From positions 1 to 31,042 of the IMG/VR virus record IMGVR_UViG_3300046657_000008: a stretch of 31,042 nucleotides of DNA; one strand, 5' to 3'. Below are positions 5,116 to 23,610 of this stretch, piece by piece. How positions within the stretch are numbered: position 1 is the stretch's first letter; every line of letters begins with the position of its first letter. A program made the translations under genes and the position numbers. The notes under the pieces were generated by a model. The model did no database searches and had not been told where the DNA came from. It worked only from the letters and a program-made list of their open reading frames with translations. This DNA comes from a virus.

Positions 5116-6072
5116 ATGGCGGTTACCGCTCCCCTGAAGCTCAGCGATGTCAACGGTTCGCTGCTTCCCCGTGAGATCACGGGCCCGATTTTCGAGAAGA
5201 GTGTTGAGCAGTCGGCGGTGATGGCGCTTGCGCGTCGGGCTCCGCTGGCGATCGACGCGACCACGGCCGTGCCGATTCCGATGGATGTGCCGACCGCCGA
5301 CTGGGTTGGGCAGGCGGCGAAGAAGCCTCTGTCGACGTCCAGTGTTGGCGTGAAGCAGATGACCGCGAAGAAGCTCGCGGTGCTGATCCCGGTCGCCGAA
5401 GAGGTCGTCATGACCAACGCGGGCGGTCTGTGGACGCAACTGCAGACGGATCTGCCGACCGCGTTCGCGCGGGCCTTCGACCATGCGGCGATCCACGGCA
5501 AGACGATGAAGAACGCCACCGGGCCGTTCTCCGACTACCTGGCGATGACCAGTCACTCGGTGGCGCTCGGCACGGCCACGCAGGGGAACGGTGGGGTGTG
5601 GGCCGACCTGGTCACCGGCATGTCTGAGGTCGTCGATGACGACTGGGACTACACCGGCACGATCGCGGACTACCGGCTCAAGCCGACTCTGCTGCTGGCG
5701 ACGGACACCACGGGCCGGCCGATTCTGGTCGACACGCAGACACCGGGCACTGACATGGCCTCTGCTGGTTCGCTGATCGGTCAGCCGCTGGCGTACTCGC
5801 GGTCGGTGTCGGGCAAGCAGCGCCGGCAGTCCGCTTCCAGCGACACGGGGCTGCGGGCAATCGGCGGCGACTGGTCGCAGGCCGCCTTCGGCGTGGGCAT
5901 GGACATCACGGTGCGGATCTCCAAGGAGGCGACCTACGTCGACGAGGAGGGCGGCGTGCACTCCGCGTTCCAGGAGAACTTGGTGTTGCTGCTCGCTGAG
6001 GCCTACTACGGCTACGTGCAGGGTGACCCGGACGCGTTCGTGAAGTACACCGGCACTCCGAGCGGCTCGTGA
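5116..6072 (+). CDS. Major capsid protein (HK97-type fold)
   Basis: Main shell protein of the head. 318 residues from ATG 5116, preceded by GGAAGGAGAA. The start chosen gives MAVTAPLKLSDVNGSLLPREIT, and upstream in-frame codons belong to the scaffold tail. The pattern fits HK97-type capsids: an N-arm, then the segment IFEKSVEQSAVMALARRAPL, a P-loop/E-loop-like region (VPIPMDVPTADWVGQAAKKPLS), a spine helix (LQTDLPTAFARAFDHAAIHG) and a C-terminal beta-rich domain ending near FVKYTGTPSGS. Directly follows the scaffold, as expected. Its TGA overlaps the GTG of the following glycosyltransferase gene, so that gene is probably translated by ribosomes finishing this highly expressed protein. Confidence 0.92.
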   Translation: MAVTAPLKLSDVNGSLLPREITGPIFEKSVEQSAVMALARRAPLAIDATTAVPIPMDVPTADWVGQAAKKPLSTSSVGVKQMTAKKLAVLIPVAEEVVMTNAGGLWTQLQTDLPTAFARAFDHAAIHGKTMKNATGPFSDYLAMTSHSVALGTATQGNGGVWADLVTGMSEVVDDDWDYTGTIADYRLKPTLLLATDTTGRPILVDTQTPGTDMASAGSLIGQPLAYSRSVSGKQRRQSASSDTGLRAIGGDWSQAAFGVGMDITVRISKEATYVDEEGGVHSAFQENLVLLLAEAYYGYVQGDPDAFVKYTGTPSGS

Positions 6073-7100
6073 GCAGGGCCGTCCCGGCTTCCGCGCCGGG
6101 CGGGACGGCCAAGCCGCTGAAGATCGTGGCCCGTGTGCACGCGATGCCTCCGGAGCACAACGCGGGCGCCGAGCACATGCTTGTGAGCATGCTTCGGCCG
6201 CTGGTGGAGCGTGGACACGACGTGTCCGTGTGGCTGTCTCGGTACGGCAAGGCTCACGCCGAGTACGAGTACCGCGGCATCAAGGTCATACCGCTGGAGT
6301 CGCGACTCGATTTCCCGGCGGCGGTGCGGCGGGCGGATGTGCTTCTGGCTCATCTGGAGACGGTGCCGTCGACGGCGTCGCTTGCGCGCGGCTACGGGAG
6401 GCCGTTGGTCGTGGTCTGCCACAACACCCATAGGCCGACGTTCCGGGATGCGGCGGCTGGCGGAATTGCGCTGGCGGTGTACAACTCGCGGTGGATGGAG
6501 GCAGAGGCCGAGCTCTTCCTTGCCGAGTACCCGAAGTCCATGCGCCCGGTTGCCTCGCTGATCATGCGTCCGCCGGTGTTCGCCGGCGAGTACGCGACGA
6601 AGCCCGGCAAGGCCATCACGTTGATCAACTGCAACGAAGCCAAGGGCGGCAAGGTGCTGGAGGCCTTGGCCCGCCGCATGCCGGCTCAGCAGTTCCTTGC
6701 GGTGCGAGGTGCCTACGGCGAGCAGATCCTCCCGGACCTGCCGAACGTCGAGGTTGTCGAGCACGTCCGCGGTGAGGACATGCGGGAACAGGTCTACAGC
6801 CGTACCCGTGTGCTGCTGATGCCGTCGTCCTATGAGAGCTGGGGGAGGGCCGGCGCTGAGGCGCTTGCCTCGGGCATTCCGGTCGTCGCGCACCCCACGC
6901 CGGGGCTCGCCGAATCCCTCGGCGAGGCCGGCATCTTCGTCGATCGCAACGACACGGCTGGCTACGAGGCGGTCCTGCGCAAGCTGCTGACGCCCGCCGA
7001 GTACCGGCTCGCCAGCAAGCGCGCCAAGGCCCGGTCAGCGGAGCTCGACCCGACTGTGGAGCTCGCTGCTTGGTGCGATGCAGTGGAGGCCCTGGCCTGA
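6069..7100 (+). CDS. Glycosyltransferase, GT4-like (GT-B fold)
   Basis: Predicted to move a sugar from a nucleotide donor to an acceptor that cannot be named from sequence. 343 residues. N-terminal Rossmann domain: KIVARVHAMPPEHNAGAEHML (about 18-38), with the glycine/acid loop typical of GT4 acceptor domains. The C-terminal domain has the EX7E motif, E256 and E264 in SSYESWGRAGAEALASGIPVV, followed by the donor-binding strand and TPGLAESLGEAGIF. No signal peptide or membrane segment, so a cytosolic enzyme. Its GTG overlaps the capsid stop (GTGA) and I see only a weak ribosome site, so expression probably depends on coupling to the capsid gene. Placement between capsid and head-tail connector suggests that virion proteins are the acceptor, as reported for some mycobacteriophages, but this is inference. 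Confidence 0.88.
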   Translation: MSRAVPASAPGGTAKPLKIVARVHAMPPEHNAGAEHMLVSMLRPLVERGHDVSVWLSRYGKAHAEYEYRGIKVIPLESRLDFPAAVRRADVLLAHLETVPSTASLARGYGRPLVVVCHNTHRPTFRDAAAGGIALAVYNSRWMEAEAELFLAEYPKSMRPVASLIMRPPVFAGEYATKPGKAITLINCNEAKGGKVLEALARRMPAQQFLAVRGAYGEQILPDLPNVEVVEHVRGEDMREQVYSRTRVLLMPSSYESWGRAGAEALASGIPVVAHPTPGLAESLGEAGIFVDRNDTAGYEAVLRKLLTPAEYRLASKRAKARSAELDPTVELAAWCDAVEALA

Positions 7101-19282: not shown

Positions 19283-19564
19283 GTGCCGCACCCCGACTCC
19301 GGCTACTACCCGCAGAGCGTCCTGCACCAGGTGCGCGTCGTCGATCTACAGACGGACAGTCCGTTGTTCGCTTGGACCGCCGAGCTCCAACTGGATGGCC
19401 GCGGCCAGGGCGTCACCACCGAGCTCCTGGACCGGGTCACGCAGACCATCGCCGAGTTCGCAGCCGAGCAACTGGCCGAGGCCGGGGGAGTGCAGGAGAC
19501 CCGGGCGACCCTCAGCTACACGGGCGCCTGCGACGTGGTCCTGCTACCCGAACCGGAGGCGTGA
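19283..19564 (+). CDS. Small tail-region protein, unknown function
   Basis: 93 residues from GTG 19283, preceded by CTAGGAGGCC, which decides the start over the upstream open frame to 19235. Sequence MPHPDSGYYPQSVLHQVRVVDL, then FAWTAELQLDGRGQGVTTELL, a helix DRVTQTIAEFAAEQLAE and a C-terminal strand ACDVVLLPEPEA. Predicted soluble alpha/beta. It sits between two receptor-type tail proteins and overlaps the next ATG (TGATG), so it is probably made with them and may be a chaperone or a small structural part. I do not recognise the family. Confidence 0.7.
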   Translation: MPHPDSGYYPQSVLHQVRVVDLQTDSPLFAWTAELQLDGRGQGVTTELLDRVTQTIAEFAAEQLAEAGGVQETRATLSYTGACDVVLLPEPEA

Positions 19565-20196
19565 TGCCGACCAGCGATTCCTACGGGCAAGGCGTGCAGA
19601 TAGCCGCGCTAACGGACGCCCCCAACCAGCAGGTCTTGGCGGCGAATCTCGCAAGTGGCCTGGTGCCGCGTAGCGTGATGCGGTTCGCGTCTGCGTCTGC
19701 CCGCAACGCAACCCTCGCCAGCCCTGTTGCAGGCATGGTCGCATTCCTCACCGCCGAGAAGCTTTTCACCGGCTACGACGGGACTGCCTGGGTGGTCCTC
19801 GCAGCCGGCACGTCGGCCTGGACGTCGATTCCTCTGGCCAGCGGATTCACCCACGATGGCAACTCAAACGGAAGCGCCCAGTACCGGATCGTGAACCTGT
19901 TCGGGGAGCTGACAGTCATGCTCCAGGGCGGCCTGAACCTCACCTATCCGGGCTCGCCGGGCTCGATCAGCAACGGTGGCGTCATCACCTCCTCCGTGCT
20001 GCCGTCGGCCGCCCGGCCCGGATCGCTGCGGACGGTTGCCGCGGCCTGCTCGGCGGTGACCTCAGACTCCCTGACGCTGAAGATCGACGCACAGCCGGAC
20101 GGTCACCTGAAGATTGTTGGCACCACGACGACCACCGCAACTGAACGCATCACACCCCCGTGGGTCAGCTTGAACGGCCTCTTCTACAGCCTCTGA
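19564..20196 (+). CDS. Minor tail protein with receptor-contact-like C-terminal domain
   Basis: 210 residues from ATG 19564 (MPTSDSYGQGVQIAALTDAPN). Residues 1-80 contain ALTDAPNQQVLAANLASGLVPRSVMRFASASARNATLASPVAGMVAFLTAEKLFTGYDGTAW, a pattern very common in Streptomyces phage minor tail proteins: a short N-terminal docking segment, then a V/A-x-x-G-M-V-A-x-L strand and Y-D-G-x-A-W-V-V. Residues 86-210 form a beta-rich domain with the same element order as the end of the 18663-19274 product, finishing ITPPWVSLNGLFYSL. Probably a tail-tip receptor-binding or shaft protein. The start overlaps the previous stop. It is the last tail gene before the lysis block. Confidence 0.75.
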   Translation: MPTSDSYGQGVQIAALTDAPNQQVLAANLASGLVPRSVMRFASASARNATLASPVAGMVAFLTAEKLFTGYDGTAWVVLAAGTSAWTSIPLASGFTHDGNSNGSAQYRIVNLFGELTVMLQGGLNLTYPGSPGSISNGGVITSSVLPSAARPGSLRTVAAACSAVTSDSLTLKIDAQPDGHLKIVGTTTTTATERITPPWVSLNGLFYSL

Positions 20197-20210
20197 TCTG
20201 GAGCTACTGG

Positions 20211-20357
20211 ATGCCTGACCAGCCAGCACCCGTCCCCATCCAGCCGCGGGTGGATGAGAGCGCCGGAGACCTCGACACGCTCGTCGACCTGGGCCTGGCG
20301 GAGCCGCCGCCCGAGCCGTCCCCTGAACCGCCGCCCCCGCCCAGCGCGGATACCTGA
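20211..20357 (+). CDS. Proline-rich acidic micro-protein, copy 1
   Basis: 48 residues from ATG 20211, with CTGGAGC six bases upstream. N-terminal QPAPVPIQPRVDESAGDLDT, then a core shared with 22610-22750: D-L[19 protein letters not shown]. The tail is PPPPSADT. No signal peptide or membrane segment. The second copy lies just after the lysis block, and both keep reading frame, ribosome site and core residues while DNA differs mainly at third positions, so I take both as real genes. Role unknown: the helix-plus-polyproline layout suggests a peptide that binds another protein. A hairpin terminator follows. Confidence 0.6.
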   Translation: MPDQPAPVPIQPRVDESAGDLDTLVDLGLAEPPPEPSPEPPPPPSADT

Positions 20358-20373
20358 CTCTGACAACCTCGAC

Positions 20374-20400
20374 GCCCCGAGCCCGCTGGCCGGGGCCTTT
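20374..20400 (+). terminator. Hairpin terminator before endolysin
   Basis: GCCCCG (20374-20379) pairs with CGGGGC (20391-20396) around an 11-base loop, followed by CTTT and CGCATATCTGGAGG, which carries the ribosome site of the endolysin. Probably separates tail and lysis expression in part. Confidence 0.6.
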
Positions 20401-20418
20401 CGCATATCTGGAGGCCCC

Positions 20419-21363
20419 ATGGCCACACCCATGTCCGCTGCCGATTTCATCGCCGCCCTCAGAGCCGAGGGGGTGCGCGTCGTCGAGGTCGGCAACTGGC
20501 GTACCCACAACCGCAACAGCAAGGGCGCGTGGGGACCGATGCACGGCGTCGTGATCCACCACACCGTCACATCGGGCGTCGACGCGTCGGTGCAGATCTG
20601 CCGCGACGGATACTCCGGGCTTCCGGGCCCGCTGTGCCACGGGGTCATCGACAAGGCTGGCATTGTCCACCTGGTCGGCTACGGGCGAGCGAACCACGCG
20701 GGCGGCGGGGATCCGCGTGTTCTCGACGTGGTGACGACCGAGTCCTATGGCGACCGCCCTCCGGCCCCGACGAAGGGCAACGCAGACGGCGTCGACGGCA
20801 GCCATGCCTTCTACGGCTTCGAGTGCATCAACCTCGGCAACGGCAAGGACCCCTGGCCCGAAGCGCAGCTCGACGCGATTGAGCGGGTGTCAGCAGCGAT
20901 CTGCCGGACGCACGGCTGGTCCGAGAAGAGCGTCATCGGCCACCTGGAGTGGAGCGACGACAAGAGCGATCCGCGCGGCTTCACCATGCCCGACATGCGG
21001 GCTCGCGTCGCCAAGCGGCTCGGGGCGAAACCCTCCGGTGGGACGTCCGCTCCGGCCAAGCCGCCAGCCAGCAAGCCGAAGGTCAGCCTGGCGCACATCA
21101 TCGCCGCGGCCCGCAAGGACCCAGGCGCCGCGCAGGGCCACACCACATACCGGGCCGAAGTGCTTGTCGTCGAGAAGGCTCTGGACGCAGAGGGCCTGCT
21201 GGCGTCGAAGTACGTCGACGGCAGCTTCGGCACGAAGAGTGTGGCCGCCTACGCAGCGCTGCAGCGGCGCTACGGCTACAGCGGCACCGACGCCAACGGC
21301 ATTCCCGGCAAGATCAGTCTCACTCGCCTCGGCACTAAGCACGGCTTCACCGTCACTTCCTGA
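20419..21363 (+). CDS. Endolysin: N-acetylmuramoyl-L-alanine amidase with peptidoglycan-binding domain
   Basis: Cuts the amide bond between MurNAc and the stem peptide at the end of infection. 314 residues from ATG 20419, behind TCTGGAGG; the open frame back to 20254 precedes this ribosome site. Amidase_2/PGRP fold at about 20-200. The Zn site is visible as GVVIHHTVT (H47 or H48), GHLEWSDDKSDPRGF (H175, D184 in place of the Cys of some members) and conserved YGFECINLGNGKDPWP. A Pro/Ala/Lys linker at about 205-225 leads to a peptidoglycan-binding_1-like domain (AAQGHTTYRAEVLVVEKALDAEG; FGTKSVAAYAALQRRYGYSG). No signal peptide, so release needs the holin next door. Confidence 0.92.
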   Translation: MATPMSAADFIAALRAEGVRVVEVGNWRTHNRNSKGAWGPMHGVVIHHTVTSGVDASVQICRDGYSGLPGPLCHGVIDKAGIVHLVGYGRANHAGGGDPRVLDVVTTESYGDRPPAPTKGNADGVDGSHAFYGFECINLGNGKDPWPEAQLDAIERVSAAICRTHGWSEKSVIGHLEWSDDKSDPRGFTMPDMRARVAKRLGAKPSGGTSAPAKPPASKPKVSLAHIIAAARKDPGAAQGHTTYRAEVLVVEKALDAEGLLASKYVDGSFGTKSVAAYAALQRRYGYSGTDANGIPGKISLTRLGTKHGFTVTS

Positions 21364-21376
21364 GAAGGGCACGACC

Positions 21377-21637
21377 ATGACCGACCCGATTTCTCTCCCC
21401 TCCGCAGACACCGTCATCAAGACGGGAGCGACCTTCGCACGCGACCTCCTCGAGCGCGTGCTGGCCACCTTCCTGCAGGCGTTCATTGGTGGCATCTCCG
21501 TCGTCACCCCGCTCGACGGCTCCATGTGGTACGCGGCCCTGGCCGGCGCCGTGGCCGCGGCCCTGTCTCTGGTGAAGGGCCTCTTCGCCCGATTCGGCGA
21601 GGTCAAGAACAGCGCTAGCCTCGCCAAGGGTGTCTGA
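21377..21637 (+). CDS. Holin (two predicted membrane segments)
   Basis: Probably forms the membrane lesion that releases the endolysin. 86 residues, ATG at 21377 with GAGAAGG ten bases upstream. Two hydrophobic segments separated by a short polar loop: VLATFLQAFIGGISVV (about 28-43) and MWYAALAGAVAAALSLVKGLFA (about 50-71). It ends in a charged tail (RFGEVKNSASLAKGV). This size and two-segment plan fit class II / r1t-like holins found directly after amidases in actinophages. The upstream extension of the frame to 20747 mirrors the endolysin and is rejected. Confidence 0.85.
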   Translation: MTDPISLPSADTVIKTGATFARDLLERVLATFLQAFIGGISVVTPLDGSMWYAALAGAVAAALSLVKGLFARFGEVKNSASLAKGV

Positions 21638-21649
21638 GGCGGAGGCCCT

Positions 21650-21946
21650 GTGTCCGACGAGCCGACCCTCGGCGAGGTCGTGAGACGCTTCGAGGATCGG
21701 CTTGCGGACGTCAGGGACGATATCCAGCAGCTCGGCCGACGCCTCGACACAAAAGTCAGCCAGGACGTGTACGACCTGCGGCACGAAGCGTTGGCCTCCC
21801 GCGTCAGCACCCTGGAAACACTGCGGGAGAAAGATGCTGAGCGCATCGTGGCCACTCGAAGGTGGCTGATCGGCGCGGTGATTGTCCCGCTGGTAGGGAT
21901 CCTGCTGCCTGTCGTCATTCTTCTGTTGCGGGGGGTGGGATCGTGA
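21650..21946 (+). CDS. Coiled-coil membrane protein of the lysis block
   Basis: 98 residues, GTG start with GGCGGAGG upstream. Residues 1-68 are a charged helix/coiled coil ([20 protein letters not shown], then [16 protein letters not shown]). One strong membrane segment follows at about 74-93 ([20 protein letters not shown]), with only a few residues beyond. The layout resembles XhlA-like holin partners and phage membrane-tethered coiled coils. Its TGA overlaps the GTG of the collagen-like gene. It could be a second holin, an antiholin or a spanin-like factor; the Gram-positive-type host makes a classical spanin unlikely. Confidence 0.75.
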
Positions 21947-22605
21947 CGCGCTCCCAGCTCCGTGCTGAAGAGCGGCGCTGGCGTCGAGGCGATGCCATTG
22001 CGCTTGCGGGTGCTCTGCTTCTGGGTGCCGTCATGGCGTGGATCGTTCTCGCGGTGCAGCAGCTCGGGGGAGAATTGCAGACCGCTAACTCTGCCCGAGA
22101 CGCCCTCGCTCGACAGGTGCAGCAGCTGGGTGCGAAGCCAATCGCCGGCCCGCCCGGCAGCCGTGGCGAGCCAGGCAAAGCCACCCGCGGGCCCCGAGGC
22201 CCGCGAGGCCCAGAGGGCGAACCCGGCTCGCCCGGCCCTGCTGGCCCCACAGGAAAGACGGGACCGTCTGGTAAGGCAGGGGCGGAGGGGGAGCCCGGGA
22301 GTGGCGGCAACCCGGGCTCGGCAGGCAGCGATGGGGCGAATGGCGTCAACGGCGCCGACGGTCCGGCAGGCCCTCCGGGCCCCCAGGGCCCGCAAGGTGA
22401 GCCCGGTCCTGCCGGCCAGGACGGTAAGGCCGGTGCCGACGGACGAGACGGCCAGGTATGCCCGGATGGGTACAGTCTCCAGCCGCCGGCCGACGACCCT
22501 GACGCGCTGGTGTGCCGCAGAGATGGAGCACCGGATCCCTCACCTGACCCGGCTCCGTCATCGTCGCCGCCCGCAGTGCTCACCCCCGAGCGGCGCCGGT
22601 CGTAA
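21943..22605 (+). CDS. Membrane-anchored collagen-like protein
   Basis: 220 residues from GTG 21943, overlapping the previous stop. A basic N-terminus ([16 protein letters not shown]) precedes one membrane segment at about 18-40 ([26 protein letters not shown]), then a short helical neck. A run of Gly-X-Y triplets follows at about 68-170 ([50 protein letters not shown]). The C-terminal piece contains two cysteines ([20 protein letters not shown]) and ends in a Pro/Ser tail. By charge the N-terminus is cytoplasmic and the collagen rod outside. I infer an envelope-associated or virion-associated rod. Collagen-like proteins are known in phage tails, but the membrane anchor and lysis-block position are less usual. 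Confidence 0.82.
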
Positions 22606-22609
22606 CCCC

Positions 22610-22750
22610 GTGCCGCTGAAGCCTCGTACCGATGAGGCGGCAGCGGACCTTGGCAGTCTCGTGGATCTCGGTATGGCGGAGCCTCCGCCCGAGCCGTCCC
22701 CGGAACCGCCCCCGCCGCCGGCGCAGACCTTCGACGCGCCCGCTGGGTGA
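22610..22750 (+). CDS. Proline-rich acidic micro-protein, copy 2
   Basis: 46 residues from GTG 22610, five bases after the collagen gene stop. [17 protein letters not shown] then the shared core [20 protein letters not shown] and the tail AQTFDAPAG. Same core and length as 20211-20357; N- and C-terminal ends differ. No good ribosome site (GGTCGTAACCCC) is visible, so it is probably translated by coupling. A terminator follows within five bases, marking the end of the late + strand block. Function unknown. Confidence 0.58.
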
Positions 22751-22754
22751 CTTT

Positions 22755-22786
22755 GCCCCGTTCTTGCTTCGGCGGGGCGGGGCGTT
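22755..22786 (+). terminator. Terminator ending the late operon
   Basis: GCCCCG (22755-22760) pairs with CGGGGC (22773-22778), or with the next GGGGC (22779-22783), and TTT follows at 22785. Starts four bases after the last stop codon. Two alternative right arms make a robust stem. It likely ends late transcription. Confidence 0.75.
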
Positions 22787-22789
22787 TCG

Positions 22790-22813
22790 CTGCGGCGTCA
22801 ACTTCCGCCGCAG
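22790..22813 (+). repeat. Second hairpin upstream of metalloprotease
   Basis: Perfect 8-bp inverted repeat: CTGCGGCG (22790-22797) and CGCCGCAG (22806-22813) with loop TCAACTTC. No T-run. It may reinforce the preceding terminator, or be a protein site or RNA hairpin. Confidence 0.55.
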
Positions 22814-22819
22814 ATGATC

Positions 22820-22837
22820 TAGTTGATGGTGCAACTA
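22820..22837 (+). promoter_or_regulatory. MarR-like operator candidate upstream of metalloprotease
   Basis: TAGTTG (22820-22825) and CAACTA (22832-22837) form a perfect 6-6-6 inverted repeat in an AT-richer spot 65 bases before the protease ATG. Spacing and half-site resemble MarR-family operators. No MarR gene is in the window, so the regulator could be host-encoded. No clear -35/-10 pair is visible. Confidence 0.45.
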
Positions 22838-22902
22838 ACTGTCGGGCTTGCGCGTCTCACCATCACCCCCACAACTTCATACGGCATCCACAAGGAGTCC
22901 AC

Positions 22903-23610
22903 ATGCGGAAGATCTACGCCGCTTCTGCCGCCGCCCTCGCCGCCTGCGCGCTCTCGGCCTCGCCCACCCAGGCGGCGACCATCACCACAGCCGGCACCGG
23001 CTGGAAGCTCGCCACCCAGCTCGGCGTCACCTCCGCCAGCCCCGGCCAGACGTACACCGTCACCTACCAGTCCGACGCCATCCGCCAGTTCTACGCACCG
23101 CAGATACAACGCGCCGTCGACCAGATCAACAGCTCCACCGACCTCAACCTGACCATCGGCGGCGTCGAGACCATGGACCCCAACAAGTGCGGGCCCGACT
23201 TCCACATCCAGGTCATGGAGCTCAAGAACCCGATGGGCGACAGCCACCCCGGCTGGTCCCAAGGCATGCCCTGCCCCAACCCCGCCCAGGGCATGAGCCG
23301 CGGCGGCATCGTCGCCATGAACAGCTCCTACCGCGACAGATCCTGGCCCATCAAGCAGGAGACGCTCCAGAACACGGCCGTCCATGAGGTGCTGCACGCT
23401 GTCGGCCTCGACCACCCCAACTACGACATCGACAAGGACGGCACCTTCGAGTCGTATGAGTGCGTCGCCACCAGCTACGGCAACAAGCCGATCATGTGCA
23501 GCCCCAACGGGGGTTACTCCACGTGGAACAACGTGGGCAAGCTCGTCGGCTACGACATCAACGGCCTCAACGCGCTGATCGCCAACGCCCGCGCCCAGGG
23601 CATTCAGTAG
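22903..23610 (+). CDS. Secreted metzincin-type zinc metalloprotease
   Basis: Predicted exported protease, 235 residues, ATG at 22903 with AAGGAG seven bases upstream. Signal peptide at 1-24 (MRKIYAASAAALAACALSA, cleavage likely after SPTQA). The zinc motif HEVLHAVGLDH (H161, E162, H165, G168, H171) is the full metzincin HExxHxxGxxH, and the Met-turn is visible about 30 residues on as PIMCSP. It differs from snapalysin, whose third ligand is Asp. Cys in NKCGPDF, MPCPN, YECVA and IMCSP may form disulfides. No propeptide of usual length is obvious, so the enzyme may be made active or be held by a host inhibitor. It has its own upstream control region and a strong terminator, as for a cargo (moron) gene. 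Substrate unknown. Confidence 0.88.
   Translation: MRKIYAASAAALAACALSASPTQAATITTAGTGWKLATQLGVTSASPGQTYTVTYQSDAIRQFYAPQIQRAVDQINSSTDLNLTIGGVETMDPNKCGPDFHIQVMELKNPMGDSHPGWSQGMPCPNPAQGMSRGGIVAMNSSYRDRSWPIKQETLQNTAVHEVLHAVGLDHPNYDIDKDGTFESYECVATSYGNKPIMCSPNGGYSTWNNVGKLVGYDINGLNALIANARAQGIQ

Follow-up and report, generated by a model that had tools for sequence, protein, structure and literature searches.

Two similar, short, proline-rich open reading frames (ORFs) stand one on each side of the lysis genes of a 31,042-base IMG/VR virus record, which is referred to here, at its full length, as the window and has the layout of a Streptomyces-type temperate siphophage. What are these micro-proteins, and why does one close each flank of this block? 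The original prediction had regarded them as a duplicated peptide of no described family, selected at its protein core and acting in lysis timing or in virion or envelope association. Both ORFs were confirmed at their expected lengths, copy 1 between a tail gene and an amidase endolysin and copy 2 after a collagen-like gene (Table 1), and a search of the window with copy 1 recovered copy 2 with an E-value of 4e-16 and 77% identity over residues 7-45. The GTG of copy 2 lies 4 nt past the stop of the collagen-like gene and has no Shine-Dalgarno sequence.

Table 1. Coordinates of the micro-protein genes, their neighbours and their relatives
Feature	Record	Position	Strand	Basis or remark
Tail-appendage gene, directly 5' of copy 1	Window	19564..20196	+	phrog_16452 1.7e-61; same gene precedes the L003 copy
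Shine-Dalgarno GGAG of copy 1	Window	20200..20203	+	Sequence; 7 nt before ATG
Copy 1, micro-protein gene	Window	20211..20357	+	48 aa; position 1, before endolysin
Terminator-like stem-loop after copy 1	Window	20374..20396	+	RNA fold; 16 nt past stop; not individually significant against shuffles
Endolysin	Window	20419..21363	+	Amidase_2 PF01510 5e-19; phrog_880 3e-68; weak C-terminal PG-binding match
Holin	Window	21377..21637	+	phrog_443 1.9e-9
Small lysis-cassette protein	Window	21650..21946	+	phrog_38457 1.4e-10; coiled-coil-like N-terminal part and C-terminal hydrophobic segment (sequence)
Collagen-like protein	Window	21943..22605	+	PF01391 2e-15; phrog_18350 2e-35; N-terminal hydrophobic segment
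Copy 2, micro-protein gene	Window	22610..22750	+	46 aa; GTG start; position 2, lysis-block end
Terminator-like stem-loop after copy 2	Window	22755..22783	+	RNA fold, family rule; 4 nt past stop
Fused-form micro-protein	L085	8001-8303		
Fused-form micro-protein	L119	7989-8315		
Relic micro-ORF, Streptomyces chromosome	L161	8281 (start)	+	
Relic micro-ORF, Streptomyces chromosome	L162	8103 (start)	+	
Relic micro-ORF, Streptomyces chromosome	L163	7986 (start)	+	
Relic micro-ORF, Streptomyces chromosome	L181	4925 (start)	+	

Comparison of the two copies supports selection on the protein core, as had been proposed. Of the 25 base differences within the 33-codon core, 3 are at first, 5 at second and 17 at third codon positions, and together they change only 6 residues, against a mean of 15.6 expected when 25 changes are placed randomly; none of 20,000 simulations of the core divergence gave 6 or fewer residue changes (p<5e-5). 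There is nevertheless little sign of a fresh duplication: copy 1 is closer to the gene at the same position in another phage, L003 (92% identity, pN/pS 0.10), than to copy 2 (about 74-78%). In composition, copy 1 has 15 prolines, 10 acidic (Asp and Glu) and 1 basic (Lys or Arg) residue, and copy 2 has 13, 8 and 2, respectively. Inspection of the two sequences revealed no hydrophobic stretch, and an AlphaFold2 model contained only a 6-residue helix (residues 21-26), with a pTM of 0.36. Composition and this low-pTM model together suggest a soluble, mostly unstructured protein.

To find relatives, a family profile was built from ten members and searched against viral contigs, genome contigs and 393 Streptomyces genomes, which yielded over 40 distinct relatives, carried by prophages and phage-plasmids of Streptomyces. 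Family members are 43-63 aa long, with about 23% proline and a mean net charge of -8. At least 47 of the 393 Streptomyces genomes had a match at E<=1e-3, of which the weakest (E 1e-4 to 1e-3) may be chance, and at least 27, as counted from the table of matches, had one reaching 1e-8; in a class-wide sample, at least 4 of 395 genomes matched at 1e-6. The N-terminal core follows the motif RxD[ED]xAxDxxxLxxLGxxE. The C-termini vary by subgroup and end in PPPPP, in YxGLFxEPDxPP or in an added helical domain, with lengths from 43 to more than 100 aa, and this variation, which leaves no fixed arrest sequence, led us to reject a nascent-chain arrest peptide. The longer motif PxPxYxGLFxEPDxPP is found in several subgroups and is missing from both copies of the window. 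Several members (L075, L085, L119, L138, L147 and L154) carry a helical-looking C-terminal domain, of roughly 50 residues in the last five, which AlphaFold2 modelled in the fused form as a low-confidence three-helix tail; searched alone, this tail found only its own record in the viral contigs and nothing credible in phages.

The view that no family had been described also held. Neither copy, nor the motif-bearing relatives, matched Pfam or NCBIfam; the best PHROGs hit of copy 2 had an E-value of 0.1 and copy 1 had none; Rfam gave no match, and a PDB sequence search with the C-terminal motif gave none either. Our literature searches found no paper on the family, and a close relative on a phage-plasmid (WP_331763236.1) is annotated merely as a "hypothetical protein". 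A tblastn search with several members, covering 50,697 phage records, gave no credible match in isolated phages, which could reflect sampling together with the BLAST low-complexity filter. No member was seen in the stretches read of the annotated phages ZL12, SV1, Austintatious, Vondra, phiSAJS1 and EhyElimayoE, or in those of the prophage Samy, the induction of which has been described (PMC11302927). At least about one in eight of the sampled Streptomyces genomes has a match, yet none of the curated families covers it, and the proteins are short enough for gene callers to miss.

Selection was also evident across the family. Among six close pairs, pN/pS was 0.20 in the ORF frame, whereas the two remaining sense frames gave 1.8 and 3.5. 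A low value, 0.22, was also obtained for the antisense frame that mirrors the ORF, as expected because its third positions coincide with those of the ORF frame; a gene on the antisense strand was rejected, since this frame is interrupted in 14 of 41 members. Broken frames at homologous loci, the outcome that had been named as speaking against the peptide, were looked for and did not overturn the proposal: nearly all members have an intact frame together with a GGAG-like site at normal spacing before an ATG or GTG, with copy 2 of the window as the exception for the site. In GC-rich DNA, frames rich in proline arise easily, and some of the weakest matches may be of this kind, but silent changes dominate, among the sense frames, in the ORF frame only, the start, the ribosome site and the frame are all in place in independent relatives, and the ORF is conserved beyond its flanks in one relic group (see below). 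The chance that these are functionless, GC-rich, proline-coding ORFs is therefore negligible. Together, these results show that the proteins, small, acidic and rich in proline, form a hitherto undescribed family in temperate phages of Streptomyces and that this family is under protein-level selection.

Gene-context analysis placed the members at two sites. At position 1 the gene lies after the last tail gene and before the endolysin; this site is occupied by copy 1, by the L003 copy and by L151A, and L099 and L103 also follow a tail gene. At position 2, where most of the other relatives in phage context are found, the gene ends the lysis block. The prophage L151 (genome G052) has a member at each position, with a divergent endolysin and a different gene upstream at position 1, and the window is therefore not the only case of the bracketing arrangement; a second match in L152 (11898) was rejected as a true pair, being only a partial copy beside host genes. 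The micro-protein gene is the last ORF of its transcription unit, and the window pair close the tail unit and the lysis unit. Immediately upstream of position 2, the adjacent gene is of at least four unrelated types, namely collagen-like, N-terminal transmembrane (TM) ending in VDEYNRTGV, N-terminal TM ending in ILNGIDV, YIRHIDA or FIHHDV, and coiled-coil/TM. With the tail appendage included, at least five unrelated gene types are found upstream, and holin types also vary. Because these neighbours differ between members, no single phage partner is evident next door.

Separately, the collagen-like proteins upstream of the micro-ORF, in the window and in relatives, often end in GLLGLGALxxTxxYRRL or LDPxRRQYP, and in L118 LDPTRRQYP occurs on a protein that lacks the collagen C-terminus.

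The linkage to the lysis block that had been pointed out was upheld, including by the second two-copy arrangement in L151. An Amidase_2-type endolysin region is present in 30 of the 33 loci examined, both window copies flank the lysis block, and most relatives lie directly after a small membrane or coiled-coil gene of this block, often overlapping its stop. One reading of this linkage is a soluble cytoplasmic regulator that would tune lysis timing by binding the endolysin, the holin or a one-TM protein like LysF1b. The holin-like LysF1a and LysF1b of cluster F1 mycobacteriophages are likewise encoded by small genes of an actinophage lysis cassette, and LysF1b-type one-TM proteins control lysis timing in mycobacteriophages (PMC13056207). 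The neighbours of the micro-ORF resemble them in arrangement, with a holin gene and then a gene for a one-TM protein that has a charged part. Unlike a holin, an antiholin or LysF1b, however, the micro-protein has no apparent transmembrane segment, judging from its composition. The immediate upstream gene and the holin type differ between members, L099 and L103 lie only after tail genes, and chromosomal relics persist with no lysis genes nearby. A lysis regulator is possible though on balance doubtful, and nothing links the peptide to lysis timing specifically: it has no hydrophobic segment, at least five gene types lie upstream of it, and one subgroup is retained intact in host chromosomes despite the decay of its phage neighbour, which points to a host-side role.

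The other proposed role, in the virion or envelope, fared no better: no evidence links the peptide to either, and it lacks a hydrophobic segment. Each window copy does directly follow a putative tail or fibre-like gene, and distal tail genes are present in about 24-25 of the 33 loci, as would suit a minor component of the virion, a protein associated with the tail or a fibre-protein chaperone. Such co-occurrence is expected from the shared phage type, however, many relatives follow non-structural membrane genes, and relics persist with no tail genes nearby; we consider a virion role quite improbable.

The ends of the genes show a further regularity. Under strict criteria, which left 24 of the tested entries without a stem, 33 members at position 2 are followed by a strong GC-rich stem at a median of 3 nt past the stop codon (range -2 to 10), with 94% at 8 nt or less. 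For comparison, 36 ends of other genes from these loci, which carry stems of equal strength followed by T, had a median of 14.5 nt, with 19% at 8 nt or less (Mann-Whitney p=9e-8, for control genes called by codon GC bias and members related to one another); a looser control gave 3 versus 19 nt. A first stem scan had found that 42 of 59 members beat their own shuffles at p<0.05. The same junction occurs in members found later, outside the set from which the rule was made (L153, L154, L155 and L158), and the longer fused variants L075, L119, L147 and L154 keep it. Stems like that of copy 1 are also present after the position-1 copies of L003, L151 and L103. The folding z-scores of the two window stems are modest (-1.4 to -1.5), the stem of copy 1 being the weaker, so that the claim of terminators in the window leans on the family.

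In E. coli, a terminator a few base pairs past a stop codon is almost fully or largely repressed by translating ribosomes (PMC4824070). By analogy, the main function of the micro-ORF might be a translation-sensitive terminator, at which a ribosome finishing at the stop would cover the 5' arm of the hairpin, translation would lower termination and read-through would track late translation. In geometry, position 2, and this position only, resembles pyrBI-type attenuators and ribosome-repressed terminators (PMC4824070), with the stop codon near enough to the stem for a ribosome footprint to span both: the distance is 4 nt for copy 2, close to the family median, whereas copy 1, at 16 nt, lacks this feature. 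The short distance compared with other gene ends and the persistence of the junction in fused variants fit such a device. It leaves the amino-acid conservation unexplained, however, and unlike in pyrBI-type attenuators the core of the protein is conserved and the ORF closes the operon rather than leading it. In addition, the window stem at position 1, where read-through into the lysis genes would matter most, is the weaker and more distant one, no obvious abutting strong stem was found in the 40-48 nt inspected after the relics, and coupling in Streptomyces would have to be assumed from E. coli. Termination control as the main function is therefore unlikely. The junction nevertheless offers a simple, direct test of whether phages tune late termination by translation.

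Chromosomal copies bear on all of these readings. The C-terminal motif PxPxYxGLFxEPDxPP led to small ORFs at several Streptomyces chromosomal loci, and these are relatives over their full length, as a profile of four of them also matches phage-type copies at 6e-9 and 1.5e-10. Just 5' of the relic ORFs lies the decayed 3' end of a phage collagen gene (GYSLQ..., and TAMYRRPD, which overlaps the ribosome site). This remnant is interrupted by stops or frameshifts and indicates transfer from phage to chromosome. The LVDLG core is eroded in the relics, and the first residues and the C-terminal motif remain. Beside a gene labelled undecaprenyl-diphosphatase-like from its sequence, relics in three genomes (out of L161, L162, L163 and L181; Table 1) are 97-98% identical in the ORF, 81-87% in the upstream flank and 56-73% in the downstream flank; with a fourth genome at this locus, the values are 89-90%, 74-78% and 54-55%. 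The pair L189/L190, a few hundred bases from a tRNA-Trp gene, is 93% identical in the ORF and 85% and 68% in the flanks. Relics were also found in five genomes (L182-L185 and L188) at another locus, with an FAD-oxidase-like gene on one side and a gene for a small membrane protein on the other; here the C-terminal motif is nearly invariant and the ORF is not conserved above its upstream flank. These identities show a micro-protein that, on the aligned sequences, is kept better than its surroundings in at least two relic groups, and at one relic locus the better conservation of the ORF than of its flanks suggests that the protein seems to be kept for its own sake.

Two other small proteins were encountered with parts of this motif. 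One, by ParA/ParB on Streptomyces plasmids (L159 3776-4138 and L160 3962-4138), is a different protein that shares only PQYQGLFLEP with the phage family, and in L186/L187 PQHQGLFLEP lies near the N-terminus of another.

We favour, tentatively and with somewhat less than even confidence, a soluble, late, host-directed accessory protein of moron-like kind, encoded at operon ends. The copies come last in the tail and lysis units, ahead of a terminator, and from this position would be expressed late. The conserved N-terminal core and, in other subgroups, the C-terminal PxPxYxGLFxEPDxPP may be short linear motifs that dock onto a partner. This partner would most likely be a host protein, because the ORF has survived in several chromosomes where the phage gene next to it decayed, and because no constant neighbour is found, with this host-side argument coming from sister subgroups, since the window copies lack the GLFxEP motif that is best kept in the relics. 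The likeliest benefit would be the adjustment of host physiology or the exclusion of related phages, rather than virion building or a lysis pore. A fuller version, in which short motifs act on a conserved Streptomyces host protein, the host retains the gene after prophage decay (for example, as protection against related phages) and late-operon ends are translation-sensitive, is rather unlikely as a whole. Should the evidence from the relics hold, a phage micro-protein has been selected for by its hosts, which would offer a clean handle on how phages and hosts interact by way of short linear motifs in a genus that produces antibiotics.

Morons, or lysogenic-conversion genes, are accessory genes of temperate phages. 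The micro-protein gene resembles them in being a small accessory gene at transcription-unit boundaries, patchy in distribution, with unrelated neighbours and kept in relics. Unlike a typical moron, it is the last ORF inside a late operon and no promoter of its own was found; a scan of 19500-23000 for sigma-70-like promoters, which covers Streptomyces promoters poorly, detected none. The gene is thus moron-like, not a proven moron. The general kind is already known, and what is new is a protein family outside the curated databases, an unusual stop-terminator junction and retention in relics.

Two further genes of the window were noted. After the late operon, a secreted metalloprotease-like gene (22903-23610) with a weak Reprolysin_5 match is a possible lysogenic-conversion gene, and between the head and tail genes an ORF (6069-7100) resembles glycosyltransferases, as read from its sequence.
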